From positions 1 through 59,830 of the forward strand of contig JAVBXM010000249.1 in assembly GCA_030824585.1 (NCBI GenBank): a stretch of DNA of 59,830 bases, read 5' to 3'. Of the stretch, positions 42,793 to 57,240 are shown one piece after another (position 1 is the stretch's first letter; each line of letters begins with the position of its first letter). A model generated the notes under the pieces. The model worked only from the letters and a program-made list of their open reading frames with translations. It was not told where the DNA came from and searched no databases. The stretch comes from Phaeospirillum sp. GTDB taxonomy: Bacteria > Pseudomonadota > Alphaproteobacteria > Rhodospirillales > Magnetospirillaceae. The position numbers and the translations under genes were made by a program.

Positions 42793-42827
42793 GGGATGTT
42801 TTGCCATACCCGCAAACGGGTCATCCC
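42793..42827. terminator. Nested hairpin between convergent RND and marR genes
   Basis: Outer arms GGGATG/CATCCC enclose ACCCG-CAAA-CGGGT. It covers the end of the marR coding region and lies 18 bp after the outer membrane factor stop. Confidence 0.5.
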
Positions 42828-43306
42828 ACTTCCAGCGGTACCCGGCTGAGCTCGTTGTTCTGGTTCACCAATTTGTGGAGCAGATACATGAAGATCTTCT
42901 GCTCCCCCTCCGCCAGCGGCTCCAGCAATATCCGTTCGAAACTGCCGATCGGTCCGGCCAGCCCCTCGAGCATGGCGGAGCCCTCCCCGGAAATGAAAAG
43001 ACACTTGATGCGCTTGTCCTTGCCGTTCCGGCGCTGAAGCAGTCCCTTCTTCTCCAGCCGGATGACCACGTCGCCGATGGTCGAGCGGTCGAAGGCGATC
43101 ATCCGCGCCAGCGACCGCTGATCGACCCCCGGATAGGCGCTGACCACGGTCAGGGCCGCGAATTGGACGGGGGTAATGCCGAACGCCTGGGTTTCGTTCA
43201 GAAAGATCGAAACCGCGATCTGATGGAACCTGCGCGCCAGATGCCCGGGATTGCCGTAGATCGGGAGGGTGTCCTGGCCTTTTTCGTCCGCCAGCAAATC
43301 AGACAT
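42821..43306 (-). CDS. MarR-family transcriptional regulator
   Basis: 161-aa winged helix. ITPVQFAALTVVSAYPGVDQRSLARMIAFDRSTIGDVVIRLEKKGLL (part) is the MarR DNA-binding region, followed by the wing RRNGKDKRIKCLF. The recognition helix is around DRSTIGDVVIRLEKKG. Divergent from the corrinoid methyltransferase operon, with a 22-bp perfect inverted repeat between them that is the obvious operator. Likely a repressor released by the methylated substrate or its demethylated product, possibly an aromatic acid as for many MarR proteins; inference. Confidence 0.92.
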   Translation of the reverse strand: MSDLLADEKGQDTLPIYGNPGHLARRFHQIAVSIFLNETQAFGITPVQFAALTVVSAYPGVDQRSLARMIAFDRSTIGDVVIRLEKKGLLQRRNGKDKRIKCLFISGEGSAMLEGLAGPIGSFERILLEPLAEGEQKIFMYLLHKLVNQNNELSRVPLEVG

Positions 43307-43446: not shown

Positions 43447-43468
43447 GTGCAATATTTCAATATTGCAC
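43447..43468. promoter_or_regulatory. 22-bp perfect inverted repeat, probable MarR operator
   Basis: GTGCAATATT-TC-AATATTGCAC: ten-base arms, two-base centre, no mismatch. Size and the TTGC/GCAA-like arms suit a MarR dimer. It is 141 bp from the marR start and 205 bp from the corrinoid protein start. Confidence 0.75.
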
Positions 43469-43510
43469 ATTATCAGCACTCTCAAAAACGGATTTAAATT
43501 AATCATATAC

Positions 43511-43530
43511 GTTATATAACATAGTGTTAT
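43511..43530. repeat. Overlapping palindromes GTTATATAAC and ATAACA-TAG-TGTTAT
   Basis: A perfect 10-bp palindrome overlaps a perfect 6-3-6 dyad. It may be a second regulator site (for example an oxygen or nitrogen-status regulator) or the AT-rich promoter core of the corrinoid operon. Confidence 0.4.
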
Positions 43531-43672
43531 CCAAAAATTCCGCCAGACCTCTCCCGCCGCCGAGCCTTCCCCGGAAACACCTAAAAATATTGACAGTATA
43601 CCTACTATTATGGTGACAATACCCATGCAGGCCGGATGGCTTTGGCCCGGATATGGATTGAGGGAGGAAACA

Positions 43673-44332
43673 ATGGCGCTGGATGAAACGGCCCTGGTGA
43701 TCGCCATCGCCGACATGGAGGAGGACGAGGCGCTGCGCCTGGCGCGCCAGGCCATCGATGACGGCTTTGATCCGCAACGCATCCTCGACCTCTGCCGCGC
43801 CGCCATGGACATCGTCGGCGCGCGCTTCGAGAAGAACGAGTACTTCCTGCCCGAGCTGATGATGGCGGGCGAGATGCTCGAACAGATCGGCGCCATGGTA
43901 AAGCCGCTGCTGCTGGCCAAGGACGGCGATTCGGGAGCGGCGGCCGGACCGGTGGTGATGATCGGCACCGTCCACGGCGACCTGCACGACATCGGCAAGA
44001 ACATCGTCACCTTCATGCTGGAGGTGAACGGCTTCAAGGTGATCGACCTGGGCATCGACGTGCCGGTCGCCACCTTCATCGACAAGATCCAGGAGCACCG
44101 GCCGGCGGTGGTGGGATTGTCGGGCTTCCTGACACTGGCCTTCGATTCCATGAAGGAGACGGTGGAAGCCATCGCCGCCGCCGGCATGCGCGACGGGCTG
44201 AAGATCATGATCGGCGGCGGCCAGGTGGACGAGACGGTGCGGGCCTATACCGGCGCCGACGCCTTCGGCCTCAACGCCATGGCCGCCGTCTCGCTGTGCC
44301 AGACCTGGCTCGGCAAGGCGCGGGCGGCATGA
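43673..44332 (+). CDS. Corrinoid protein (methyl carrier, MtaC/MtvC-like)
   Basis: 219-aa B12-binding methyl carrier. Helical cap domain about residues 1-90 (LDLCRAAMDIVGARFEKNEYFLPELMMAGEML, part), then a Rossmann-type cobalamin domain with the base-off motif GDLHDIGKNIV (Asp-x-His-x2-Gly, the His being the lower Co ligand), GFKVIDLGIDVP, VGLSGFLTLAF and IGGGQVDE. Receives a methyl group from substrate on Co(I) and passes it to tetrahydrofolate. Strong ribosome site GGGAGGAAACA. First gene of the operon; ATGA overlap with the methyltransferase gene. Confidence 0.93.
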   Translation: MALDETALVIAIADMEEDEALRLARQAIDDGFDPQRILDLCRAAMDIVGARFEKNEYFLPELMMAGEMLEQIGAMVKPLLLAKDGDSGAAAGPVVMIGTVHGDLHDIGKNIVTFMLEVNGFKVIDLGIDVPVATFIDKIQEHRPAVVGLSGFLTLAFDSMKETVEAIAAAGMRDGLKIMIGGGQVDETVRAYTGADAFGLNAMAAVSLCQTWLGKARAA

Positions 44333-45600
44333 CCATGCCCGGCATCCCCGCCCAGACCCCCGCCGCCAAGGCCGCCTATGATGCCCGCTGGAACCGGGTG
44401 ATGGATTGCGTCGCATTGCGGCAGCCGGACCGTCTGCCCATCGGCATGCAGCCGACCTTCTGGCTGGCCAAGTACGGCGACATCACCTGCCGCCGGCTGA
44501 TGTACGACTACGACAAGACCGCCGAGATCGCCGAGCGGGCCATCTTGGAATTCGAGCCCGACGGCCACAGCCCGATGGTCCTGGCCACCGCCTCGGGCCA
44601 GGCGCTGGAGGCGCTGGACTTCAAGCAGTTGCAATGGCCCGGCCACGGCGTCGGCGACAACCAGCCGTTCCAGTACCTCGACCGCGAGTACATGAAGGCC
44701 GACGAATACGACGACTTCCTGCTCGACCCCACCGGGTTCTACCTGCGCAAGTACCTGCCCCGCGTCGCCGGGGCGTTCGAGGGTATCGACGAACTGCCGG
44801 TGCTGCCGAGCATGTACTATACCCGGCTGGTCATGGGCACCCGCGCCTTCGCCCGTCCCGGCGTACGGCAGGCGCTGGAAAGGATGATCGCGGCGGGCGA
44901 GGAGGCCGAGGCCCTGTTCCAGCGCCACATCGCCTTCGAGGACAGGATGGCGGCGCTGGGCTATCCGGCCTCGTACATGTATTCGTCGGTCTCGCCCTAC
45001 GACTACATCGCGGACTATTTCCGGGGCGCCAAGCAGATCATGACCGATCTGTTCCGGCGCAAGGACAAGCTGCTGGAGATGCTGGAGCGGGTGCGGATCA
45101 TCATCACCCGCAGCACCATCGAGGCGGTCAAGGCCAGCGGCAATCCCTTCGTGTTCATCCCCACCCACTGGGCGCCCGATTCCTTCATGTCGGACCAGCA
45201 GTTCACCACCTTCTGGTGGCCGCCGTTCCGCCGGATGCTGCTCGACCTGATCGCCGCCGACATCATCCCCATCCCCATGTGGGAAAGCGACTGCACCAAG
45301 CGCCTGGAGCACATCAAGGATATCCCAGCGGGCAAGTGCATCTACTGGTTCGAGCGCACCGACATGGTCAAGGCGTTCGAGGTGCTGGGCGACGTGGTGG
45401 CGCTGCGCGGCAACCTCTCTCCCTCCATGATGACCACCGGCACGCCCGCCGACGTCGACGCGGCGGTCCGCCATCTGGTCGACAACGTCTTCAACAAGGG
45501 CGGCAAGCTGATCCTCGACTGCGCCTTCGGCATTCCCGATGAAACACCGGTGGAGAACGTGCGGGCCATGTTCACCGCCGCCCGCAAGTACGGCGGCTGA
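44329..45600 (+). CDS. UroD-family corrinoid methyltransferase, probable substrate demethylase
   Basis: 423-aa (beta/alpha)8 protein of the uroporphyrinogen decarboxylase superfamily, the MtaA/MtbA/MtvB-like branch rather than HemE. It has a Cys in MWESDCTKRLEHI and a second Cys in GKLILDCAFGIP, 76 residues apart, the spacing of the zinc-binding Cys pair in MtaA/MtbA. The HxC of those is replaced by E-S-D-C, so Glu or Asp probably completes the zinc site. Translational coupling to the corrinoid protein makes it the likely enzyme that takes methyl from the unknown donor (O-, S- or N-methyl). No other substrate methyltransferase is in the operon. Confidence 0.86.
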   Translation: MTMPGIPAQTPAAKAAYDARWNRVMDCVALRQPDRLPIGMQPTFWLAKYGDITCRRLMYDYDKTAEIAERAILEFEPDGHSPMVLATASGQALEALDFKQLQWPGHGVGDNQPFQYLDREYMKADEYDDFLLDPTGFYLRKYLPRVAGAFEGIDELPVLPSMYYTRLVMGTRAFARPGVRQALERMIAAGEEAEALFQRHIAFEDRMAALGYPASYMYSSVSPYDYIADYFRGAKQIMTDLFRRKDKLLEMLERVRIIITRSTIEAVKASGNPFVFIPTHWAPDSFMSDQQFTTFWWPPFRRMLLDLIAADIIPIPMWESDCTKRLEHIKDIPAGKCIYWFERTDMVKAFEVLGDVVALRGNLSPSMMTTGTPADVDAAVRHLVDNVFNKGGKLILDCAFGIPDETPVENVRAMFTAARKYGG

Positions 45601-45615
45601 GGGAGGAGGACGGCC

Positions 45616-46953
45616 ATGGGTCCCGCCCTCTGGCACGCCGGTCTAAAGCTGTTGCGCCCGCTGGCGGCCGTATTCGGACGCCGGCGGCTGGAGCGGCCGC
45701 TGGCCTGGGTCGAGCGGCGGCTGAAACGCCCCCTGTTCGGCTGCCGGATGTGTGGGCAATGCGTGCTGGACACCACCGGACTGGGCTGCCCCATGCGTTG
45801 CCCCAAGGGATTGCGCAACGGTCCCTGCGGCGGCGTGCGGTCCGACGGAACCTGCGAACTGGACGCCGCCATGCCCTGCGCCTGGAAGGACATCTGGACC
45901 CGGCTGGGCGGTACCCTGCCCCCGCGCCAGCCTTTGCTCGACCATCGCCGGGCGGGCAAGTCCGCCTGGCTGGCCGAGGTCCTGGACGCCAAGCCGGCGG
46001 TGCCCGACCTGCCGCCTGACCGGCCGCAGGTCATGGGACGGCTGCAGGCCAAGCTGGCGGCCGGCGAATTCGTGGTCACCGCCGAGATCGCGCCGGGCAC
46101 CGCCGCCGACGGCTCGGCTCTGCTGGCCCAGGCCGAGAAGCTGGGCCCCTGGGTCGACGCCGTCAACGTCACCGACGGCTCGGCCGCCCATTGCGCCCTG
46201 TCGAGCATGGCGGCCGCCGCCCTGCTGAGCCGGGCCGGCTATGACGCCGTGATGCAGATGACCTGCCGCGACCGCAACCGCATCGCGCTGCAGAACGATC
46301 TGCTGAGCGCCACCGCGCTGGGCATCGAGAACGTGGTGTGCCTGACCGGCGACGGCGTGCTCAACGGCGACCATCCCGAGGCCAAGCCGGTGTTCGATCT
46401 GGACGCCGTGGCCCTGCTCGCCGCCGCCAAGACGCTGCGCGACGGCGGGCGCTTCCTGTCGGGCCGCGCCCTGGCGGTGCCGCCCGCCTATTTCATCGGC
46501 GCGGTGGACAACCCCTTCGCGCCGCCCGAACCGGCCCGTGTCCAGCGCCTCGCCGCCAAGGTGGCGGCCGGGGCGCAGTTCGTCCAGACCCAGTACGTCT
46601 TCGACCTTGCGGCCTTCGCCCGCTACATGGAGCGGGTGCGGGCCGCCGGGCTGCACCGCCGCTGCCACCTCATCGCCGGGGTCGGCATGGTGGCTTCGGC
46701 CCGCACCGCCCGCTGGCTGGTCCGCAAGGTGCCGGGCGTGCGTATTCCCCATGCGGTCGTCACCCGGCTGGAACAGGCCGCCGACCCCGTCGCCGAAGGC
46801 GCCGCCCTGGCGGTGGAGGTGATCGACGCGCTGCGCCGCATCGAGGGCGTCGCCGGGGTGCACCTGATGTTCCACCATCATCTCGATCTGGTGGGCGGCG
46901 TGATCGCCGAGGCCGGTCTGGCCGGCCCGCGCGGCCGCCGCGAGGTGGCGTGA
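45616..46953 (+). CDS. Fused MetV-like zinc/Fe-S domain and methylenetetrahydrofolate reductase
   Basis: 445 aa. N-terminal part (about 40-140) carries CRMCGQCVLDTTGLGCPMRCPKG, then NGPCGGV and further Cys, the MTHFR_C/MetV domain. From about residue 150 a MetF barrel: FVVTAEIAPGTAADG, VDAVNVTDGSAAH, QMTCRDRNRIALQNDLL, VVCLTGDGV, and FVQTQYVFDL. MetV is usually a separate subunit of acetogen MetVF; here it is fused ahead of MetF. In this operon it would oxidise methyl-THF to methylene-THF, recovering electrons. No canonical NADH-domain added. Confidence 0.87.
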   Translation: MGPALWHAGLKLLRPLAAVFGRRRLERPLAWVERRLKRPLFGCRMCGQCVLDTTGLGCPMRCPKGLRNGPCGGVRSDGTCELDAAMPCAWKDIWTRLGGTLPPRQPLLDHRRAGKSAWLAEVLDAKPAVPDLPPDRPQVMGRLQAKLAAGEFVVTAEIAPGTAADGSALLAQAEKLGPWVDAVNVTDGSAAHCALSSMAAAALLSRAGYDAVMQMTCRDRNRIALQNDLLSATALGIENVVCLTGDGVLNGDHPEAKPVFDLDAVALLAAAKTLRDGGRFLSGRALAVPPAYFIGAVDNPFAPPEPARVQRLAAKVAAGAQFVQTQYVFDLAAFARYMERVRAAGLHRRCHLIAGVGMVASARTARWLVRKVPGVRIPHAVVTRLEQAADPVAEGAALAVEVIDALRRIEGVAGVHLMFHHHLDLVGGVIAEAGLAGPRGRREVA

Positions 46954-47636
46954 TGGAGATCGACGCCGGACGCCTGGGCAAGGGGTTGGCGCGGCAGGCG
47001 CTGGCGACGGTTCGCGCCGCGTCGCACCCGGCGGTGATCCGGCGGCTGGCGGCGCTGGAAGCCGAGATGGAGGGCCTGCTGAGCCCAAGGGCGTCGGTCC
47101 GCGTGGTCGCCGCGCGGATGGAGGGCCGCGATTGCCTGCGCCTGGACGGCGGCCTGGAACTGCGGGGCGGTTTCGTCAACCGCTTCGCCGGGGCGTCGGG
47201 CGCGGCGGTGGTATTCGCCACCCTGGGGAACGCCTATGCCGAACACACCTCGGCCTGCTTCGCCCAGGGAAAGGCGGTGGAGGCCGCCCTTTACGATCAG
47301 GTGGGCAGCAAGGCGGTGTGGCGGCTGGGCCAGCGGATACTGGCCGGACTGCGCCTCGCCGCCCGCCGCGACGGAAAACACGCTGGCGGCCCGCTGTTCC
47401 CCGGCGACCCCGGCCTGCCCCTTTCCGCCCAGTCCGTCCTGGCCGAAATCGGCGCTCCGGCCGCCGCCGGGGTGGCGGTGGTGGCGGGCGGGCTGCTGTC
47501 GCCGCTCAAATCCCTGTCCATGGTGGTGGCGGTGGGCGACGGGATGCGGCGCTGGAGCCGGGCCAGTTCCTGCCGCGAGTGCAAGTTCTTCGAGCGCTGC
47601 CGCAAGCCGGCCGAGACGCGGAAGGCGTGCCGATGA
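46953..47636 (+). CDS. Methionine synthase activation-domain-like protein
   Basis: 227 aa. Resembles the MetH reactivation (SAM-binding) fold found as stand-alone proteins beside corrinoid systems: FPGDPGLPLSAQSVLAEIGA corresponds to the PGYGDWPL-type loop, and LLSPLKSLSMVVAVG to the MxPxKSVS segment. The C terminus has SCRECKFFERC, a Cys triplet (C-x2-C-x5-C) that could bind Fe-S. Possible role: reductive methylation or maintenance of the corrinoid protein. One-base overlap with the gene before and ATGA with the activator after. Confidence 0.75.
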   Translation: MEIDAGRLGKGLARQALATVRAASHPAVIRRLAALEAEMEGLLSPRASVRVVAARMEGRDCLRLDGGLELRGGFVNRFAGASGAAVVFATLGNAYAEHTSACFAQGKAVEAALYDQVGSKAVWRLGQRILAGLRLAARRDGKHAGGPLFPGDPGLPLSAQSVLAEIGAPAAAGVAVVAGGLLSPLKSLSMVVAVGDGMRRWSRASSCRECKFFERCRKPAETRKACR

Positions 47637-49210
47637 CCAGCGTCCACGTATCCTTCCAACCCTCGGGGCTCCATATGGGCGTGCAGGCCGGCGAGATGCT
47701 GCTGGAAACGGCGCGGCGCGCCGGGGCGCGCATCGGCTCGGCCTGCGGCGGACGGGGGCGCTGCCGCGCCTGCGCCGTCAGGATCGAGAGCGACAGCCCC
47801 CCCGAGGTCTCGGCGGCCGACCGCACCGTCTTCTCCGTCGCCGAACTGGCCGCCGGCTGGCGCCGGGCCTGCCAGACGCGAATCGAGCGCTCGTGCCGGG
47901 TCCACGTGCCGGCCCGCAGCGCGGCGACCATGGTACCGCGCGGCCAGGATTCCGGCGCCGACCGAGTTCCGGTGGTCGAGCCGGTGGCGCAGCGGGGGTT
48001 GGGGCTGGCGGTGGATCTGGGCACCACCAATCTCGCCGCCGCCCTGATCGATCTGGAAACGGGCACGGTGCTGGCCCGCGGCGCCGCCGAAAATCCGCAG
48101 GGCATCTATGGCGGCGACGTCATCAGCCGGGGCGGCCGGGCGCTGCGCGACCCGGCGGCGGCGGCGGAACTGCGTCGTCTCGCGGTCGAGGCCATATTCG
48201 ACCTGGCCTGCACCCTGACCGGCGGAGCACCGGAAAGCGTGATCGAACTGGCGGTGGTGGGCAATTCGGTGATGCAGCACCTGTTACTGGGATTGGCGGT
48301 GGACTCCCTGGTCAAGGCGCCCTACCGGCCGGTGCTGTCGGAGGCCTGCGACCGGCCGGCGGCGGGATTCGGGCTGGCCCCCGGCGCCCGCCTGCATGTG
48401 GGGCCCAACATCGCCGGCTTCGTCGGCAGCGACCATGTGGCGGCGCTGATCGAAGTGCTGGAGACGCCACCCGACGGGTGCTGGGCGCTGCTCGACATCG
48501 GCACCAACACCGAGATTTCCCTGTGGCGGAACGGCCGGCTGGTCAGCGCGTCATGCCCCTCGGGCCCCGCCTTCGAGGGCGGCGTGCTGACCAGCGGCAT
48601 GCGCGCCGCGCCGGGGGCGGTGGAAAAGGCCACCATCACCGGCGACCGCCTGGAGCTGGCCACCATCGAGGATGCCCCACCCGTGGGGCTGTGCGGCTCG
48701 GGCGTGCTGTCGCTGCTGGCCGAACTGCGCAAGGCCGGCATGGTCGACCGGCGCGGCCGCCTCGGCCTCGGCCATCCCCGGGTGCGCGAGGCCGGCGAAA
48801 CCCGCGAGGTGATCCTGGCCGACGAGGCCGCCACCGGCGGGCTGGCGGTGGCGTTCACCCAGGCCGACATCCGCAACGTCCAACTGGCCAAGGCCGCCAT
48901 CCGGGCCGGGCTCGACCTGATGCTCGACCATGCCGGGATCACCGAGACCGACCTCGACCGGGTGATCATCACCGGAGCCTTCGGCAAGCACCTCGATCCG
49001 GCCGACGCGGTGGCCATCGGCATGCTGCCCGGCCTGGCGCCCGAATGCTTCGACCGGATGGGCAACGCCGCCGGGGCCGGAGTGCGCCGGATGCTGGCCT
49101 GCCGGATGGCGCGGCGCCGGGCCACGGACATCGCGCGTAGCGCCGAATACCTCGAACTGGCATCCCGTCCCGACTTCCAGAAACGCTTCATCGCCCGGAT
49201 GGGACTTTGA
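47633..49210 (+). CDS. RACE-type reductive activator of corrinoid proteins
   Basis: 525 aa. N-terminal [2Fe-2S] ferredoxin domain with C-x5-C-x2-C (ACGGRGRCRACAVRI) and a fourth Cys in RRACQTRIE; linker; then an ASKHA ATPase-like domain (DUF4445) from about residue 120: LGLAVDLGTTNLAAALID, VVGNSVMQHLLLGL, LLDIGTNTEISL, GLCGSGVLSLLAEL, ITGAFGKHLDPADAVAIGMLP. RACE proteins use ATP to re-reduce Co(II) to Co(I) after accidental oxidation. This strongly marks the operon as a working corrinoid methyl-transfer system. Confidence 0.93.
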   Translation: MTSVHVSFQPSGLHMGVQAGEMLLETARRAGARIGSACGGRGRCRACAVRIESDSPPEVSAADRTVFSVAELAAGWRRACQTRIERSCRVHVPARSAATMVPRGQDSGADRVPVVEPVAQRGLGLAVDLGTTNLAAALIDLETGTVLARGAAENPQGIYGGDVISRGGRALRDPAAAAELRRLAVEAIFDLACTLTGGAPESVIELAVVGNSVMQHLLLGLAVDSLVKAPYRPVLSEACDRPAAGFGLAPGARLHVGPNIAGFVGSDHVAALIEVLETPPDGCWALLDIGTNTEISLWRNGRLVSASCPSGPAFEGGVLTSGMRAAPGAVEKATITGDRLELATIEDAPPVGLCGSGVLSLLAELRKAGMVDRRGRLGLGHPRVREAGETREVILADEAATGGLAVAFTQADIRNVQLAKAAIRAGLDLMLDHAGITETDLDRVIITGAFGKHLDPADAVAIGMLPGLAPECFDRMGNAAGAGVRRMLACRMARRRATDIARSAEYLELASRPDFQKRFIARMGL

Positions 49211-49232
49211 CCGAAACCAACGGAGGCTTTCC

Positions 49233-50105
49233 TTGAACGAACAGTGGACCATCATCGGCGAGCGCATCAATCCCGGCTTCAAAAGCACGCGGGCGCTGTT
49301 CGAGACCAAGGACATCGCCGGCATCCAGGCCCTGGCGGTCAAACAGGCCGAGGCCGGAGCCAAATACCTCAACGTCAATACCGGCATGGCCGGCGAGAAG
49401 GACCACGGCTTCGCCCGCGCCGTGGTCGAGGGCATCCAGGCGGTGGTGCCGGTGCCCCTGTCCTTCGACTCCGCCTCGCTGCAACTGCAGACCCTCTACC
49501 TCACCACCTATGATGCCGAGAGGGCGGGCGGCGCCAAGCCGATGATCAACTCCATCGCCGAGACCCATCTCGGCATGCTGGAACTGCTGACCATCCGTCC
49601 GAGCAAGATCATCGTCATGGCTTCCGAACGGCTGGAGGACGGGGCCGGACGCCGCAACGTCAAGGCGGAGCAGGTGATCGGCGCGGCGCGGCGCATGGTG
49701 GGACACACCGACAAGATCGGCGTGCCGCACGACGACATCATCGTCGACGTCTCGGTCAGCGCCATGGCCGCCGACAGCGAAGGGCTGACCCGCATGGCGC
49801 TCGACGCCATCCAGACCATCGGCACCCTTCCGGAACTGGCGGGCGTGCACATCACCGGCGGCATCAGCAACATCGGCCAGCAACTGCCGGCCAAGACCGC
49901 CGGGGGCGACGATCTGAAGCACAAGCTGGAATGCGCCTTCCTGACCATCGCCACGCCACTGGGCTTCGACACCATCCTGGGCACGCCGTGGAAGGAATAC
50001 CACCTGCTGCCCGAGGACGATTTCGTCATGACGGTGTTCCGCGACTTCATCTCCCGCTCGGGCCTCGACGCCCTCAAGCAGGTGAGAAGGCTGTACCGGC
50101 CATGA
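49233..50105 (+). CDS. Methyltetrahydrofolate:corrinoid methyltransferase (MeTr/MtvA-like)
   Basis: 290-aa pterin-binding TIM barrel. WTIIGERINPGFKSTRALF, KYLNVNTGMAG, LSFDSASLQLQTLYL, MINSIAETH, and HITGGISNIGQQLP (the Asn-containing loop near N5 of folate). It transfers methyl from the corrinoid protein to tetrahydrofolate, completing the second half-reaction. The start is TTG at 49233, with CGGAGG eight bases upstream; no ATG or GTG nearby fits the family N terminus. TTG may lower its translation relative to neighbours. Confidence 0.9.
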   Translation: MNEQWTIIGERINPGFKSTRALFETKDIAGIQALAVKQAEAGAKYLNVNTGMAGEKDHGFARAVVEGIQAVVPVPLSFDSASLQLQTLYLTTYDAERAGGAKPMINSIAETHLGMLELLTIRPSKIIVMASERLEDGAGRRNVKAEQVIGAARRMVGHTDKIGVPHDDIIVDVSVSAMAADSEGLTRMALDAIQTIGTLPELAGVHITGGISNIGQQLPAKTAGGDDLKHKLECAFLTIATPLGFDTILGTPWKEYHLLPEDDFVMTVFRDFISRSGLDALKQVRRLYRP

Positions 50106-51247
50106 AGCGCCTGATCGTCGGCTCCTATTTCGACGGGGAACGGCTGCATGCCGACGGCCCCTACGCCGTGATTCACGACGGGTCCGCCATCCTGGGCATC
50201 GAACCGTCCGAGGGACCGGCCGAGGCGGCCTTCATCATGCCGTCGCTGGTGGACGCCCATATCCACGTCTTTCTCGACGGGGCCGAACTGGACCCGGCCC
50301 GGCGCAAGCAAGCCATGGCCGCCGACGGGGACAGCACCCTGGCGGTGGCGACGGCCAATGCCGAGGCGGCCTGGCGGGCCGGACTCGCCGTCCTGCGCGA
50401 TGCCGGCGACCCGCGCGGCATCAATCACGGCCTGCGCGAGGGGCTGGCCCGCAGCCGCCATCCGATCCGCCTGCGCTCGCCCGGTCCGGCATTGCACCGG
50501 CCGGGGCGCTATGGCTCCTTCCTGGGGGCGGCCATCGCCGACGACCGCGAGGCGGCGGCCACGGTGGCGGGCCTGTGCGAGCAAGCCGACGACATCAAGG
50601 TGCTGCTGACCGGGGTGATCGACTTCGTCTCGGGCGAAGTCAAGGGGCGGCCGCAATTCGATGGGGACACCGCCACCGCCATGGTCGCCACGGCACGGCA
50701 GCGGGGCCGCCCGGCCTTCGCCCACTGCAACGGCGCCGAGGGACTCGGGATCGCCATCGCCGCCGGGTTCGATTCCATCGAGCACGGCTATCTGATGGAC
50801 GAGAACTCGCTCCGCGCCATGGCTGGCCAGGGTATCGCCTGGACACCCACCCTGGCGCCGGTGGCGGCGCAGCGCCGCCTCGCCCCGGAGATTTCCGGCT
50901 TCGGCCCCGAGGTGCTGGCCCGCCTCGATACCATCCTCGAACGCCACGCCGAGTCCATCGCCCGGGCCGCCCAGTTGGGGGTAATGCTGTATTGCGGCTC
51001 GGATGCCGGCGGACAGGGCGTGCCCCACGGCGACGGCCTGATCGACGAGATGCTGCTGATGGCCGCCGCCGGGGTCCCCATGGCCACGCTGCTGGCCGGT
51101 GCCACCGCCCTGCCGCGCGCCCGCTGGGGCGAGCCCGCGGCCCCGATCCGCAAGGGCGGGGCCTTCGCCCCCCTGATCCTGCCGCAATCGCCGTTCGAGC
51201 GGCCCGAGGCGCTTCGCCACGCCCGCCGCCCGCCGCCGGGAGAATGA
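50102..51247 (+). CDS. Amidohydrolase-superfamily metal hydrolase
   Basis: 381-aa metal-dependent hydrolase. FIMPSLVDAHIHVFLDGAE has the first HxH; a Lys in DDIKVLLTG may be the carbamylated lysine; later His in AFAHCNGAEG and SIEHGYLMDENS; metal Asp in YCGSDAGGQG. Related to imidazolonepropionase/prolidase-type members; substrate unknown. ATGA overlap with the methyltransferase gene. It could split an amide, lactam or ring of the methylated substrate or product, or trim a pterin-like compound. Confidence 0.83.
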   Translation: MKRLIVGSYFDGERLHADGPYAVIHDGSAILGIEPSEGPAEAAFIMPSLVDAHIHVFLDGAELDPARRKQAMAADGDSTLAVATANAEAAWRAGLAVLRDAGDPRGINHGLREGLARSRHPIRLRSPGPALHRPGRYGSFLGAAIADDREAAATVAGLCEQADDIKVLLTGVIDFVSGEVKGRPQFDGDTATAMVATARQRGRPAFAHCNGAEGLGIAIAAGFDSIEHGYLMDENSLRAMAGQGIAWTPTLAPVAAQRRLAPEISGFGPEVLARLDTILERHAESIARAAQLGVMLYCGSDAGGQGVPHGDGLIDEMLLMAAAGVPMATLLAGATALPRARWGEPAAPIRKGGAFAPLILPQSPFERPEALRHARRPPPGE

Positions 51248-51621
51248 CCATGTCCGCAGCCGATACTCTCGACCGGGTACTGATCGATGGCCTGCAACTG
51301 TACATGCCCATCGGCCTGCATTCGTGGGAACGCGATCAGGCCCAGCCGGTGCGGGTCGATCTGGAACTGGACTGTGAGCGCCGCGCCCTGGGCGACGAAC
51401 CGGTGGTCTGCTACGAGCGCCTGAGCGAGCGGGTCAAGGTTCTGGCCGCCGCCGGGCACGTGGAACTTGTCGAAACCCTGGCCGAGCGCATCGCGGGGCT
51501 TTGCCTCAGCGACCCCCGAGTGCGCCGGGCCACCGTCTCGGTCCGCAAGACCGGGGCCGTCCCAGGTACCGCCGCCGTGGGGGTCAAAGTCGTGCGGGAG
51601 AACAGCGTGCCGGAAACATAA
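51244..51621 (+). CDS. Dihydroneopterin aldolase-like protein (FolB family)
   Basis: 125 aa. LDRVLIDGLQLYMPIGLHSWERDQAQPVRVDLEL (part) is the FolB N terminus; the Glu and Tyr around VCYERLSERVK and VELVETLAERIAGLCL match the tunnel fold. Expected to act in tetrahydrofolate synthesis (dihydroneopterin aldolase/epimerase). Being inside the operon, it may boost the folate pool used as methyl acceptor. ATGA overlap with the amidohydrolase. A second ATG six bases later is possible. Confidence 0.82.
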   Translation: MTMSAADTLDRVLIDGLQLYMPIGLHSWERDQAQPVRVDLELDCERRALGDEPVVCYERLSERVKVLAAAGHVELVETLAERIAGLCLSDPRVRRATVSVRKTGAVPGTAAVGVKVVRENSVPET

Positions 51622-51641
51622 TCGAACAGAGGGAGGACATC

Positions 51642-52808
51642 ATGATCTGGAAGCCTTTGGTCGGGATCGCCCTGGCCTTGGTCGTGAACCTGGCGGACAG
51701 CACCACCGTGCGCGCCGCCGAGGACATTCGCATCGGAACGTTTCTGTCGGTGACAGGGGTGATGTCGCTGATGGGCGACCCCGAGAAGCGGACGTTCGAC
51801 ATGCTGGTGGAAAAGATCAACGCCGAGGGCGGCGTGCTGGGACGCAAGATCCAGCTCATCACCTACGACGACGGCTCCGAGCCGGAAAAGGCCGCCACCT
51901 TCGTCAAGCGCCTGATCGACAACGACAAGGTGGACCTGATCATCGGCGGCTCGGGGACTCCGACCAGCATGGCGGTGCTCAACCTGATCGAACGCGCCGA
52001 AATCCCCTACATCTCGCTGGGTGGCGGCGTCGGCATCGTCGATCCGGTCCGCAAATGGGTGTTCAAGGTTCCCCCCACCGACCGCATGGCCGCCGACCGG
52101 GTGCTGGCCGAGCTGAAGGCGCGCGGCCTGACCAAGATGGCCATCCTGTCCGAGAACGTCGGGTTCGGGAAATCCGGCCGCGACCATACGGTGGCCCTGG
52201 CCCCGAAGCACGGCATCGAGATCGTTGCCGACGAGGTCTACTCGCCCAAGGATCCCGACGTCACCGCCCCCCTGACCAAGATCCGGGGCATCAACGGGGT
52301 CCAGGCCCTGTTCGTGTTCGGCAGCGGCAACGGCCCCGCCGTGGTGACCAAGAACATCCGGCAGCTCAACTTCACCATTCCGGTCTACCAGTCGCCGGGG
52401 GTGGCATCGCGGGAGTTTCTGCGTCTGGTGGGCAATGCCGCTGACGGCATGCGGCTGGCCGCCGGAGCCCTGATCGTCGCCGAGCAACTGCCCGCCGACG
52501 ACCCGCAGCGGCCGGTGGTGGTCAACTTCAAGCGGATGTTCGAGGAGCGCAACAAGCCCATGGACGTGAGCACCCTGGCCGGGCACGGCTGGGATTCGCT
52601 GATGATCGCCGTCGAGGCCATCAAGCGGGCCGGCGGTACCGACAAGGCCAGGCTCAGGGACGAAATCGAAAGGACCAGGAACTTCATCGGCACCGCCGGC
52701 ATGGTCAACATGTCGGCCACCGACCACCTGGGCCTGGGGGCCGATGCCTATCACATGATCGAGGTGAAGAACGGTGATTGGGAACTGAGCGACACCAAGT
52801 TCCGGTAA
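51642..52808 (+). CDS. Leu/Ile/Val-binding-like periplasmic protein
   Basis: 388-aa type I periplasmic binding protein. Signal peptide ending TTVRA-A, then IRIGTFLSVTGVMSLMGDPEKRTFDMLVEKIN (part), LGRKIQLITYDDGSEPEKAATFVKRLID, IIGGSGTPTSMAVLNLIER, and TAGMVNMSATDHLGLGADAYHMIEV. Family members bind branched-chain amino acids, aromatic acids, amides or urea. No permease or ATPase follows, so it may use a distant Liv-type transporter. Strong ribosome site GGGAGG. Its place at the end of the operon makes it the best clue that a small polar molecule is the substrate. Confidence 0.9.
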   Translation: MIWKPLVGIALALVVNLADSTTVRAAEDIRIGTFLSVTGVMSLMGDPEKRTFDMLVEKINAEGGVLGRKIQLITYDDGSEPEKAATFVKRLIDNDKVDLIIGGSGTPTSMAVLNLIERAEIPYISLGGGVGIVDPVRKWVFKVPPTDRMAADRVLAELKARGLTKMAILSENVGFGKSGRDHTVALAPKHGIEIVADEVYSPKDPDVTAPLTKIRGINGVQALFVFGSGNGPAVVTKNIRQLNFTIPVYQSPGVASREFLRLVGNAADGMRLAAGALIVAEQLPADDPQRPVVVNFKRMFEERNKPMDVSTLAGHGWDSLMIAVEAIKRAGGTDKARLRDEIERTRNFIGTAGMVNMSATDHLGLGADAYHMIEVKNGDWELSDTKFR

Positions 52809-53036: not shown

Positions 53037-53534
53037 ATGGATTTAAGGAGGCTGTTCCTGGCCCACGGGCGGGAAGTGCGGGCCTATCTCACCCGGAAAT
53101 TGCGGGATGCCGAGACGGCCGCCGACCTGACGCAGGAGACCTTCCTGCGCTTTGCGGAACAGCATCGGCCGGAAAGCGGCGGCGCGGCAGTCCTGCATCA
53201 ACGTTCCTATCTGTACCGGACAGCCCACAACCTCGCCGTGGATCATATGCGGCAGCGGCAGCGCGAGCGAACCGACCTGATGCCCGACGATCTGCTGTCG
53301 TGCATCGCGGACGAACGCCCCTCCCCCGAGCGTCAGGCCGCCGGACACGACGAGTTGTCGCGTGTCCGCGACGCGCTGTTGGAACTGCCCGAGCGGACGC
53401 GCCAGGTTTTCGCCCTGGTTCGGATCGAGGGGCTCACTTACCGCGAGACCGCCGAGCGGCTGGATATTTCAGACAGCTCGGTTCAAAAGCATCTGGCCAA
53501 GGCGATCAAGCATGTCATGCAGCGCTTCCGTTGA
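53037..53534 (+). CDS. FecI-type ECF sigma factor
   Basis: 165 aa, sigma-70 region 2 (VRAYLTRKLRDAETAADLTQETFLRF, part; YLYRTAHNLAVDHMRQRQRER) and region 4 (LPERTRQVFALVRIEGLTYRETAERLDIS, part, with SSVQKHLAKAIKHV as recognition helix). FecI members drive transcription of a TonB-dependent receptor gene after signal from FecR. Ribosome site AGGTATGG region is weak; ATG 53037 fits family length. Preceded by a Fur-like box, followed by fecR and receptor genes. Confidence 0.93.
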   Translation: MDLRRLFLAHGREVRAYLTRKLRDAETAADLTQETFLRFAEQHRPESGGAAVLHQRSYLYRTAHNLAVDHMRQRQRERTDLMPDDLLSCIADERPSPERQAAGHDELSRVRDALLELPERTRQVFALVRIEGLTYRETAERLDISDSSVQKHLAKAIKHVMQRFR

Positions 53535-53628
53535 TTGCCGGGCCTGCCGGGAATTTACCGAATCGCGGCGGCAAAACCGTCGTACCTTGGGAAGAGGCTG
53601 GCGCCTGCCACCGAATTTGGGTCTGGAC

Positions 53629-54636
53629 GTGAGCGAACAATCACAAAGCCGGGATAGCGTGGATACCATGGCCGCCGAGTGGGTGGTGCGCCTGGAGTCC
53701 GGGGAACTGACCGAGCAGGAGCGGAACTGCCTCGCCTGCTGGCTGGAGGAAAGCCCCCTCCACCGGCTGGCGCTGCGGGACGCCCGCGCGGCCTGGGCCA
53801 GAATGGACGGCTTGCGGCTTTCCCCCGGCGCGCTGGCCTTGGACCTGGTTCCACCACCCCGGGCGGCGGCAGGGCGGCGGATCTACGCCGCCGGATGGCC
53901 GGCGGCCAGGGGCGCGGTGGCGGCCTGCCTGGCCCTGGCCTTGTGGTGCGGCCTGTCGTTCTGGCTGGATGGGCGCCCCCTGGCGGTCCTGACCGCCGAT
54001 TACCGCACCGGCACGGGAGAATTGCGGGACGTCGCCCTGGCCGATGGCAGCCGTGTGCATCTGGGGCCCGACAGCGCCGTCACGGTACGGTATTCCGCGA
54101 CGGCCCGCCGGGTCGAACTCCTGGCCGGGCTGGCCCATTTCACGGTCGCCCCCATGGGGGCCGGAGAGGATCGGCCGTTCGTGGTGGCGGCCGCCAACGG
54201 CACCGCCCGGGCGCTCGGCACCCGCTTCTCGGTCCGCCATCTGCCACACTCCATCGAGGTCAGCGTCGCCGAGCACGACGTTGAGGTTGCCCTGGAAAGG
54301 AGCGGTTCCGGGCCGAGCCGGGTCGTCCTGCCGGCCGGCCGTTCGGTCCGGTATTCGGCCGACGGCCTCGCCCCGGGGCGAGCCGTGGATACGGCCCAGG
54401 CCATGGCCTGGCGCGAGGGCCGGCTGGTTTTCAACCACGTCCCTCTGGCCGAGGTAGTGGCGGAGCTGAACCGCTATCGCCGGGGACGCATCGTCATTGC
54501 CGACGGAGTCCTGGCCACCCGGGCCGTCAGCGGCGTATTCCATGCCGCCGATCCCGACGGCGCGCTGGTCACCATCGGACAGGTGTTGAACCTCCACAGC
54601 ACATCGATTCCGTCGCTTCTCACGGTGCTTTACTGA
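53629..54636 (+). CDS. FecR-type anti-sigma/signal-transfer protein
   Basis: About 335 aa. Cytoplasmic N-terminal anti-sigma part AAEWVVRLESGELTEQERNCLACWLEESPLHRLAL (part), one TM (GAVAACLALALWCGLSFWL, about residues 90-108), periplasmic FecR domain TADYRTGTGELRDVALADGSRVHLGPDSAV (part) and C-terminal domain FNHVPLAEVVAELNRYRRGRIVI. GTG 53629 chosen to give the usual lead; ATG 53668 is possible and would shorten it by 13 residues. Relays receptor occupancy to the sigma factor. Confidence 0.88.
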   Translation: MSEQSQSRDSVDTMAAEWVVRLESGELTEQERNCLACWLEESPLHRLALRDARAAWARMDGLRLSPGALALDLVPPPRAAAGRRIYAAGWPAARGAVAACLALALWCGLSFWLDGRPLAVLTADYRTGTGELRDVALADGSRVHLGPDSAVTVRYSATARRVELLAGLAHFTVAPMGAGEDRPFVVAAANGTARALGTRFSVRHLPHSIEVSVAEHDVEVALERSGSGPSRVVLPAGRSVRYSADGLAPGRAVDTAQAMAWREGRLVFNHVPLAEVVAELNRYRRGRIVIADGVLATRAVSGVFHAADPDGALVTIGQVLNLHSTSIPSLLTVLY

Positions 54637-54721
54637 ACAGGACCCGGCCGATCGGGAGGGCGGACAGAAAAATCACGTTCCCGTTACCGACTCCCCCGTC
54701 CGTCTTCGTCTCATGACTATA

Positions 54722-54742
54722 TGCGATTAAAACGCATTCGCA
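54722..54742. promoter_or_regulatory. Fur-box-like site upstream of TonB receptor gene
   Basis: 21-bp palindrome-like element from TGCGATTAAAA to CATTCGCA; outer arms TGCGA/TCGCA. It supports placing the receptor start downstream at 54772 and not at 54721. Confidence 0.65.
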
Positions 54743-54771
54743 TAAATGGCCGCGGACGAAAGGAATGGATG

Positions 54772-57240
54772 ATGGGGTTGAAAGTGTCGGGTCGGAAGGT
54801 GGCGGGCAAATCCTTCCGCAGGGGGCTTGCCGCGACGGCGAGCGCGGTCGCCCTGCTGGCGGGAATGGTCGTCCAGCCCGGGAGCGGGGCGGCACAGGAG
54901 GGGGGACGGCCGGCTTCGGAGGCCGAAGCATCCAAGGCCTTCGACATCCCGGCCCAGGATATGAATTCCGCCCTGCTCTCCTTCGCGCGCAGCACCGGTC
55001 TGCAGGTGTTCTATGAAACCGAGCTGGTCAAGGGCAAGACCAGTCCGGCGCTGTCGGGCACCTTTACGGCGGCCCAGGGCCTGTCGCGGCTGCTGACGGC
55101 CTCGGGACTCGTCTGGCGCTTCACCGGCAGCAATACCGTGACTTTGGAAAAGGTGACGGCGGCGGGGGATGGAGCCATCGCCATCGAGGCGGTGAGCGTC
55201 GAGGGGCGGACCTCCGCCCCGGTCCAGGCGCAGATCTCGGCGCCGCCGCCGGTCTTCGCGGGCTCGACGGTGGCGCGCGGCGCGCGCCTGGGCGTGCTGG
55301 GCAACAAGGACATGATGGACACCCCGTTCAGCGCCATGTCGTACACCGCTGAGAATATCCAGAACCAGCAGGCCCGCACCATCGCCGACGTACTGGAGAA
55401 CGATCCCTCCGTGCGCTTCACCGTCACCCGCGGCCACATGCAGGAAAACTTCACCATCCGCGGCTTCGAGGTTCTCAGCAACGAGATCGCGGTCAACGGC
55501 ATGTACGGCCTGGCACCGCTGGGGCATACCCCCACCGAATTTCTGGAGCGGGTCGAGGTGCTGCGCGGTCCCAATGCCCTGCTGAACGGCGCCGCACCGT
55601 CCGGCGGCGTGGGTGGCGCGGTCAATCTGGTGACCAAGCGGGCGGGCGAAAAGCCAACCACCGCCGTCACCGTCGACTATACCAGTCCGGGTCAGCCGGG
55701 CGTTCATCTGGACAGCGGCCGCCGCTTCGGCTCGGACAACGAGTTCGGCGCCCGCGTCAATCTGGTGCGGCGCGAGGGCGATACCGCCATCCGGGGCCAG
55801 GACAAGGAAAGCCGGCTGGGGGCCATCGCCCTGGACTATTCGGGTGAAAATCTGCGCCTTTCGCTGGACGCCTACAGCAACCGCGAGGTGTTCCACAACG
55901 GCAGTCCGGCGATGGTCAACTTCCTGACCAACATCACTTCGGTGCCCAAGGCGCCCGACGGCGAGACCAACCTGTTCAAGGGCGCCTTCGGCAAGATCAA
56001 CAACGCCGCGGCCATCGGCCGGGTGGAATACGACATTACCCGCGACGTCACGGCCTACGCCTCGTTCGGCCGATTGGACCACCATCAGCACGGTTTCATC
56101 ACCTCGACCCACGCCCGCAACATCAGCAACCCGGCGGGCGTCTACACCCCGACCACCACGTTCCGCCAGGACTACCTGGATTCCTATTCCATGGAGAGCG
56201 GGCTGAGGGCCAAGTTCGAGACCGGCGCGGTGGGGCATCAGGTGGTGGCGGGCGCCTCCAACCTGCTGCAGGAGATCGGCCTGTCCTCGGCGACAGCCAC
56301 CAGCACCGCCAACAGCGGCAGCATCTATAGCAACGTCTGGCCCACCCTGGCCCGCGATTCCGGTCCGCCGCTGAAGACCGAGGATCTGACGCTCACCAGC
56401 ATCATGCTGGCCGATACCTTGTCGGTGCTGGACGACCGGGTGCAACTGACCCTGGGGGCGCGCCGGCAGCAAATCCGCGACACCTACTACGCCAACGGCA
56501 AGTTCTCGGGGAAATACGACCAGTTCGCGCTGTCGCCGGCGGCCGGGCTGGTGGTCAAGCCGCTCAACAACGTCTCGGTCTTCGCCAATTACATCGAGGC
56601 GCTGAGCAAGGGCAACCGCGTCACCAACACCGCCGCCTCCAATTACGGCCACATGTTCGCCCCCTTCAAAACCTGGCAGATGGAAGGCGGCATCAAGTGG
56701 GAGGAAGGCAAGATCGCCAACACGCTGAGCCTGTTCCAGATCTACCGCCGCACCCTGTCCAACGTGGGCAACGTCTACATGGAAGGCGAACAGCGCAATC
56801 GCGGCATCGAATGGAACGTTTTCGGCGAAGTGGTCGAGCGGGTCCGCGTGCAGGGCGGCATGGTGTTCACCGACGGCAAGATGGTCAAGGCCGCGGCCCC
56901 GGGGTTGCTCGGCACCGTTCCCTACGGCCTGCCGGAATGGCAGGGCAATTTCGGCGTCGAGGTCGATCCGCCCTTCCTGGACGGCCTGACCCTGCTGGGG
57001 CGTACCGTCTACACCGGCAAGCAGTTCGCCAATTCGGGCAATACGCTGACCATTCCCGAATGGTGGCGTTTCGACGTGGGCGCCAACTACACCCTGCCCA
57101 TTCACGAAACCAATCTGACGGTGCGCGCCTTCGTCACCAATCTGATGAACGACAATTACTGGGTGGGCAGCTTCTCCGACGGCTATCTGACGGTGTCCGA
57201 GCCGCGGACCTTCAACCTGTCGGCGACGGTGGTGTTCTGA
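54772..57240 (+). CDS. TonB-dependent siderophore receptor with N-terminal signalling (STN) domain
   Basis: 822-aa FecA/FpvA-type receptor. Signal peptide about residues 18-42; STN domain AFDIPAQDMNSALLSFARSTGLQVFYETELVKG (part, about 45-120); plug from about 185 with ENIQNQQARTIADVLENDPSVRF (part), FTIRGFEV, VEVLRGPNALLNGAAPSGGVGGAVNLVTKR (part); then 22-strand barrel ending with Phe (FNLSATVVF). ATG 54772 has AAAGGA seven bases upstream. The STN domain contacts FecR, so this receptor senses its own ligand. Ligand unknown, likely a ferric siderophore. Confidence 0.94.
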   Translation: MGLKVSGRKVAGKSFRRGLAATASAVALLAGMVVQPGSGAAQEGGRPASEAEASKAFDIPAQDMNSALLSFARSTGLQVFYETELVKGKTSPALSGTFTAAQGLSRLLTASGLVWRFTGSNTVTLEKVTAAGDGAIAIEAVSVEGRTSAPVQAQISAPPPVFAGSTVARGARLGVLGNKDMMDTPFSAMSYTAENIQNQQARTIADVLENDPSVRFTVTRGHMQENFTIRGFEVLSNEIAVNGMYGLAPLGHTPTEFLERVEVLRGPNALLNGAAPSGGVGGAVNLVTKRAGEKPTTAVTVDYTSPGQPGVHLDSGRRFGSDNEFGARVNLVRREGDTAIRGQDKESRLGAIALDYSGENLRLSLDAYSNREVFHNGSPAMVNFLTNITSVPKAPDGETNLFKGAFGKINNAAAIGRVEYDITRDVTAYASFGRLDHHQHGFITSTHARNISNPAGVYTPTTTFRQDYLDSYSMESGLRAKFETGAVGHQVVAGASNLLQEIGLSSATATSTANSGSIYSNVWPTLARDSGPPLKTEDLTLTSIMLADTLSVLDDRVQLTLGARRQQIRDTYYANGKFSGKYDQFALSPAAGLVVKPLNNVSVFANYIEALSKGNRVTNTAASNYGHMFAPFKTWQMEGGIKWEEGKIANTLSLFQIYRRTLSNVGNVYMEGEQRNRGIEWNVFGEVVERVRVQGGMVFTDGKMVKAAAPGLLGTVPYGLPEWQGNFGVEVDPPFLDGLTLLGRTVYTGKQFANSGNTLTIPEWWRFDVGANYTLPIHETNLTVRAFVTNLMNDNYWVGSFSDGYLTVSEPRTFNLSATVVF

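Follow-up and report, generated by a model that had tools for sequence, protein, structure and literature searches.

The window, that is, the whole 59,830-nucleotide stretch of Phaeospirillum sp. DNA analysed here (contig C165 of a 4.94-Mb assembly), carries nine plus-strand open reading frames (ORFs) that form one tightly packed operon at 43673-52808. This operon probably encodes an O2-independent corrinoid/tetrahydrofolate (THF) O-demethylase for a methoxylated aromatic acid of the vanillate type, and there is about an even chance that vanillate itself is the substrate. The first-pass annotation of this DNA had left the substrate open; the genes around homologous operons in relatives (VanA, LigAB) narrow it and suggest acids of the vanillate type. 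The host is a relative of freshwater magnetic bacteria, and the closest match to the UroD-superfamily methyltransferase of the operon (URO) comes from Paramagnetospirillum caucaseum SO-1 (88%).

Acetogens, Desulfitobacterium and some archaea have known corrinoid O-demethylases, and methoxy groups are a main barrier in lignin-acid breakdown. The recurring operon predicts which lineages are capable of O2-free demethylation, would make an O2-free demethylase available in bacteria that are tractable, and suggests a testable role for a conserved amidohydrolase. No description of this cluster was found in the mostly open literature searched, although Sperfeld et al. 2018 may describe the activity; likewise, the accessible parts of the literature on anaerobic demethylation in Proteobacteria contained no corrinoid system for denitrifying or microaerophilic members. 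That 2018 study concerns anaerobic aromatic degradation in Sulfuritalea hydrogenivorans, and metagenome-assembled genomes (MAGs) of Sulfuritalea carry the module.

Gene content and recurrence of the operon

Two statements of the first-pass annotation are borne out here: that nine genes are tightly coupled, as seen in intergenic gaps of -4, 15, -1, -4, 22, -4, 2 and 20 bp in order, and that they supply a complete corrinoid/THF demethylation gene set, as seen in Pfam and profile matches; a divergent MarR gene lies beside it. All Pfam assignments of the operon genes are above the gathering cut-off, the weakest being Pterin_bind (33.5 vs 25.5 bits). The operon opens with the corrinoid protein COR (43673..44332; B12-binding and B12-binding_2), the putative methyl carrier, followed by URO (44329..45600; URO-D, 71.7 bits), the predicted substrate-specific methyltransferase I. 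Next come a Cys-rich DUF5981 part fused N-terminally to an MTHFR domain (45616..46953; DUF5981 and MTHFR) and a MetH-activation-domain-like protein, MACT (46953..47636), whose family profile matches 1j6r at E 2e-5. RACE, a predicted ATP-dependent reductive activator of the corrinoid protein (47633..49210; RACo_C_ter at 248 bits, Raco_middle and Fer2), precedes PTER (49233..50105, TTG start; Pterin_bind), the predicted methyltransferase II that would transfer the methyl group from the corrinoid to THF. The operon ends with AMID, an amidohydrolase, then FolB and lastly PBP, a periplasmic binding protein.

This operon is more than a chance arrangement because homologous units recur across many genomes. 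The search of other genomes suggested by the first-pass annotation was run, and the set of MTHFR, COR, URO, MACT, RACE, PTER and AMID recurs whole or partly on contigs of alpha-, beta- and gammaproteobacteria and on a few from Desulfuromonadales. The 79 loci considered come from one scan of genomes that retained the best 80 of 173 relatives, and their genes come from our own codon-based caller, so that start positions are rough and some genes may go uncalled; tblastn showed some AMID, RACE and MTHFR genes that the caller had missed, and one locus (L127) yielded no URO call. Moreover, many contigs end inside the block, and thus the module counts are lower bounds. With these limits, COR is present in 64 loci, RACE in 56, PTER in 55, MACT in 51 and MTHFR in 40. 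COR and URO are adjacent in 62 of the 79 loci, 33 loci have the six genes COR-URO-MACT-RACE-PTER-AMID in one uninterrupted run, and in 38 the block is bordered by MTHFR, which stands first or last in most loci and between URO and MACT in the window and SO-1. The hosts include Azospirillum, Telmatospirillum, Aromatoleum anaerobium and Thauera phenylacetica, together with MAGs of Sulfuritalea, Sterolibacterium, Rhodoferax, Rubrivivax, Piscinibacter, Rhodoblastus, Geobacter and one Terriglobia (Acidobacteriota). In the URO tree, the last of these (L076) is placed among the Proteobacteria, a case of transfer or misbinning. The only plasmid homologue was a 21.5% match on a Sporomusa plasmid, without demethylase context.

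The earlier view that the amidohydrolase, FolB and the binding protein are non-standard members stands for two of the three: the amidohydrolase is a regular component (42 of 79 loci), whereas PBP-cluster genes occur in 20 loci and a lone FolB in one, besides a FolD fusion in SO-1. Within the order, URO matches at E<=0.001 are found in 28 of 297 genomes (14 of them full-length at E<1e-100), and within the genus of the window in 3 of 17, a patchy distribution as expected of an accessory catabolic unit. Seven genomes from two other families of the order (G063, G069, G138, G162, G189, G204 and G252; L040-L053) carry several URO paralogues each, with up to six full-length hits in G189; these are 44-53% identical to the window copy, and a number of them lie away from the core block. 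This would suit a URO that sets the substrate and a remainder that serves as a common C1 module, with possible substrate diversification. In one locus (L097), two COR-URO blocks follow each other.

VanA and LigAB neighbours and the proposed pathway

The neighbourhood of the module in relatives is evidence for an aromatic substrate. A VanA-cluster gene is found in 15 of the 79 loci, each time coinciding with a VanA_C match; these loci belong to 14 genomes, one of which holds both L059 and L112. The gene lies at most four genes from the block and 1.3-5.5 kb from URO, on the same strand in 10 of the 15. The expected number of such loci is 0.37, a generous value, since its background of 40 VanA_C matches comes from 30 genomes of hosts that were selected in part for having VanA. 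On the URO tree, VanA adjacency requires at least 10 gains or losses, with short loci scored as lacking VanA, and a single inherited event therefore does not explain it. The tree has 85 rows, obtained from 103 URO genes after removing 6 from duplicate loci and 12 outside 390-450 aa; a group-table count of 3 changes covered labelled rows only, and all rows give 10.

Neighbour clusters, annotated from one representative each, include VanA (VanA_C 161 bits vs 23.5), a VanB-like reductase, LigA, LigB, regulators of the GntR, MarR and LysR types, FolD, DctP and an acyl-CoA ligase. The ring-opening dioxygenase genes LigA and LigB are present in 6 of the 79 loci. Two loci (L104 and L105) have the single-strand order LigA-LigB-...-VanA-GntR-VanB-like-MTHFR-COR-URO-MACT-RACE-PTER-AMID-DctP-Amidohydro_2-acyl-CoA ligase, with a gap of about 15 bp between the VanB-like gene and MTHFR; the reductase owes its name to its domains and position, and PaaE (80 bits vs 421) is the NCBIfam family that it matches best. 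The acyl-CoA ligase of L105, at 674 vs 777 for its best family, is assigned no substrate, and a benzoate-CoA-ligase cluster (c10) was not used, being heterogeneous: its L114 member scores 363.5 vs 375.25 and its SO-1 member is acetate-CoA-ligase-like. In the multi-copy genome G162, a VanA_C match (C33:22289-22861) stands about 2.3 kb upstream of URO (C33:25208).

VanAB, a Rieske enzyme, is unrelated to the corrinoid module and O2-dependent, and its net demethylation is probably the same. We tentatively propose, at somewhat less than an even chance, that many Proteobacteria keep these two unrelated vanillate demethylases together, some apparently as one transcription unit, with Rieske VanA for oxic and the corrinoid/THF module for anoxic conditions, that the fused Cys-rich MTHFR and the prolidase-like amidohydrolase of the module, the latter with a new methyl- or folate-handling role, are unreported for acetogen O-demethylases in the literature consulted, and that the host of the window and Aromatoleum anaerobium have the anoxic half only. 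URO without a VanA_C match is found in 6 of the 30 genomes, namely those of the window, SO-1, A. anaerobium, T. phenylacetica (whose contig ends after URO) and loci L057 and L095; the window's genome was searched for VanA_C, and no search for LigM/DesA-type THF demethylases was made. Among the 14 full-length-URO genomes of the order, VanA_C is over the cut-off in 6, and the benzoyl-CoA reductase subunit D (BcrD) in 12, vs 41 of the 283 other genomes (Fisher p 2e-8, kinship uncorrected).

The host has genes for the phenolic product of such a reaction. Two loci with BcrD and three 4-hydroxybenzoyl-CoA reductase subunits are over their cut-offs, and protocatechuate 4,5-cleavage is represented on contig C97 by a fused LigAB (TIGR02792, 218 bits vs 108.6; the fused-enzyme model PRK13372, at 778 vs 837, is below cut-off), LigK (TIGR02798, 405 vs a cut-off of 304.5), PobA (TIGR02360, 673 vs a cut-off of 539) and Pfam families that we read as LigC-, LigI- and LigJ-like. 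The description of the host as aerobic-type was thus too narrow, as two benzoyl-CoA reductase loci and 4-hydroxybenzoyl-CoA reductase stand besides O2-dependent protocatechuate cleavage.

The gene set, domains, motifs, synteny, VanA/LigAB neighbourhood and host downstream genes are tool-based, and from them we infer the substrate, flow direction, electron acceptor and regulation of the following cycle, whose URO/COR/PTER/RACE part is proposed by analogy with the Cdm system as set out in the accessible text of PMC13222342. The aromatic acid would be captured by PBP, and URO would hold it against Co(I) of COR, so that attack on the O-methyl carbon would yield methyl-Co(III) and a phenol, e.g., protocatechuate from vanillate. 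PTER would pass the methyl group to THF, the fused MTHFR would convert methyl-THF into methylene-THF, and FolD and PurU, encoded elsewhere, would lead to formate; PurU is present in the host, whereas FTHFS was not found in a family search of its genome. Co(II) would be re-reduced by RACE with the help of MACT, and expression would be controlled by MarR at a palindrome upstream of COR. Lastly, the phenolic acid could enter protocatechuate 4,5-cleavage with O2, or reduction of hydroxybenzoyl-CoA and benzoyl-CoA without O2.

Several observations weigh against this reading. The aromatic pathway genes of the host sit on contigs other than that of the operon, neither VanA nor LigAB adjoins the operon in the window, SO-1 and Telmatospirillum loci, and no VanA-cluster gene is seen in 64 of the 79 loci, where, however, short contigs are common. 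The link with BcrD does not discriminate within the genus, where 15 of the 17 genomes have BcrD and 3 have URO. As paralogues exist in the URO family, the copy in the window may act on a different methoxy acid. A zinc motif, E-X14-E-X20-H, which we assign to some O-demethylases and which our literature search did not find in print, is half present in URO: E327-X14-E342 is there and position 363 is L. However, zinc is not common to all aryl O-demethylases, the Moorella enzyme being reported without it in the accessible text of PMC13222342. According to the same source, CdmB, the nearest solved relative of URO, does not demethylate methoxylated aromatics, although its authors place it close to the aryl O-demethylases.

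Core proteins and related methyl-transfer systems

URO-D is the only Pfam family in URO, and at E<=1e-3 it matches nothing in the PDB but CdmB (E 4e-35), which the family profile recovers at E 1e-51, followed by a uroporphyrinogen decarboxylase at E 4e-9. The AlphaFold2 model of URO (pLDDT 90.5) is, among the matches listed, best matched by uroporphyrinogen decarboxylase structures and also matches a Methanosarcina methyltransferase (4ay7/4ay8); CdmB does not appear in that list, drawn from a structure library that runs to April 2026. The closeness to CdmB raises the alternative of haloalkane (chloromethane) dehalogenation as in Acetobacterium dehalogenans, all the more since CdmBCA follows the same three-component logic and, with its activating enzyme, matches the gene set of the operon, as described in the accessible text of PMC13222342. 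However, four residues that are invariant in 37 URO sequences, H280, E319, C322 and R325, are aligned with W, Q, H and L of CdmB. If these positions line the cavity, they suggest that the pocket of URO is the more polar one. Taxa and neighbourhood also differ, the latter being aromatic in relatives (VanA, LigAB), a gas would hardly call for a binding protein, and the authors of the Cdm study, in the text available, consider that system likely exclusive to anaerobes; chloromethane dehalogenation is thus very unlikely.

The Cmu system of aerobic methylotrophs likewise provides a corrinoid/THF route in alphaproteobacteria, and its cluster has metF and hutI, an amidohydrolase, as neighbours. The MtaA/CmuA model is matched at 29.4 bits (cut-off 235.4), and, as far as the accessible text of PMC13222342 goes, CmuA unites methyltransferase I and corrinoid protein in one polypeptide, whereas the window has separate genes.

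COR has an intact DXHXXG motif (DLHDIG) and a GG at 181, and an exact SxL is not present. It reaches 148 bits against TIGR02370, under the cut-off of 215, and its best corrinoid-family scores are to amine- and betaine-type families, every one below cut-off. These scores favour a non-aromatic substrate such as a methylated amine, a betaine or a methylthio compound. That URO has the UroD fold and not that of MttB, MtbB or MtmB points the other way, as does the finding that no annotated neighbour cluster rests on an amine-metabolism family, and such a substrate is unlikely.

The fusion protein has 8 Cys within residues 43-88 of the DUF5981 part, which we take to be MetV-like, and may hold an iron–sulfur cluster there; the operon MTHFR has no PDB match at E 1e-10. 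Nothing in Pfam matches MACT, even at E 1; Met_synt_B12 is weakly matched in 3 of 28 family members (best E 0.11), and the C-terminus of MACT carries CxxCx5C. The Fer2 domain of RACE has an intact C-x5-C-x2-C. PTER is, judging from its sequence, a methyl-THF methyltransferase II, with PDB matches to 2yci (a methyl-THF corrinoid/FeS protein methyltransferase) and 4o0q/4o1e/4o1f.

As every step is reversible in principle and MACT resembles part of MetH, the cycle might run in reverse, with methyl-THF methylating a substrate in methionine synthesis or in biosynthetic C- or O-methylation, for which the B12-dependent estrogen methylation by EmtABCD, in the available descriptions, sets a precedent in denitrifiers. 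Against it, the host already has a second, canonical MTHFR at C9:20103 beside a 1161-aa, MetH-sized frame with a B12-binding domain at C9:23245, the VanA neighbours in relatives point to demethylation, and EmtA is described, in the source as accessible, as MtmB-like, so that a reverse cycle is very unlikely. The link to EmtABCD, prompted by Sterolibacterium and denitrifier hosts, was dropped, since the MtmB-like catalytic subunit of that system has no counterpart in URO, which has URO-D only.

The composition of the module resembles that of corrinoid aryl O-demethylases. OdmABCD, MtvABC and VdmABCD of acetogens and Desulfitobacterium and MtoABCD of archaea share with it, by component description and not by direct comparison of sequences, a UroD-superfamily methyltransferase I, a separate corrinoid protein, a methyl-THF-type methyltransferase II and an ATP-dependent activator. 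The window has the component genes expected of such a system, namely a UroD-type methyltransferase I, a separate corrinoid protein with DXHXXG, PTER and RACE, and the zinc motif of some members is incomplete. Unlike those systems, the module is found mostly in Proteobacteria, has VanA as a neighbour in part of its loci and includes the fused MTHFR, MACT and the amidohydrolase, to which the window adds FolB and PBP. Type 1 mlp clusters likewise contain UroD-type proteins, a corrinoid protein and RACE; however, in the accessible text of PMC10418091, they are from obligate anaerobes and have several Mlps near coenzyme M methyltransferases, with no H4folate methylase in the examples. At least Mlp2 and Mlp3 in one cluster define that type, whereas the window has one UroD-type gene and a PTER gene.

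Accessory genes, regulation and flanking sequence

AMID (50102..51247; Amidohydro_1, 55 bits) is a prolidase/ochratoxinase-type amidohydrolase in which H53, H55, K166, H208, H228 and D301 are invariant in 42 sequences, a set that we take to resemble a metal-ligand pattern. Its AlphaFold2 model is nearest to 8yak, 2qs8 and 8yag, and its nearest solved proteins are ochratoxin- and prolidase-type amide hydrolases. Two roles considered for it were weakened: replacement of PurU, since 28 of the 30 hosts tested have PurU over the cut-off (2 of the 30 have FTHFS), and replacement of FolD, since AMID is also present in 6 of the 7 loci carrying a FolD-cluster gene.

FolB (51250..51621; 79 bits), a dihydroneopterin aldolase, may serve folate supply, with which the FolD fusion at the same place in SO-1 fits; there, a 421-aa FolD-FolB fusion (L054:16890-18152) stands where the window has FolB alone. 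PBP (51642..52808; Peripla_BP_6) has 3sg0, 4dqd, 7ylt and 3uk0 as its nearest solved relatives. The first two presumably hold aromatic keto acids and 3uk0 is a CouP-type protein, so that an aromatic acid is the likely ligand of PBP. A comparable protein, RPA1789 of Rhodopseudomonas, binds p-coumarate, ferulate and cinnamate and has a MarR gene nearby, according to the accessible text of PMC3223731.

The divergent MarR-family gene (42821..43306, minus strand; MarR_2, 37.5 bits vs a cut-off of 27) is separated from COR by a spacer of 46% GC, vs 70% in the operon. This spacer contains a perfect palindrome with 10-bp arms and a 2-bp spacer (43447..43468), a candidate MarR operator that is unique in the 4.94-Mb assembly even when as many as 3 mismatches are allowed. 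The first-pass annotation had placed the operon at 43447-52808 under a MarR regulator: the end is correct, whereas 43447 is the first base of the palindrome and COR begins at 43673; the divergent MarR gene is present, outside that span, and its control of the operon is a plausible proposal. The MarR cluster of the window is found in 4 of the 79 loci (L055, L057, L069 and L117), and a different MarR cluster in 7. Upstream of COR, palindromes with arms >=8 occur in 6 of 14 loci scanned, including the window, each of different sequence, and SO-1 has none there.

A promoter scan gave 3 candidates vs 1.0 +/- 0.9 expected, two of them on the minus strand in the spacer and none on the plus strand before COR, and a terminator scan gave 5 vs 4.3 expected; neither result enters the argument. 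Directly downstream of the operon, at 53037-57237, lie sigma-factor-, FecR- and TonB-receptor-like genes, as judged from the reading of the ORFs.

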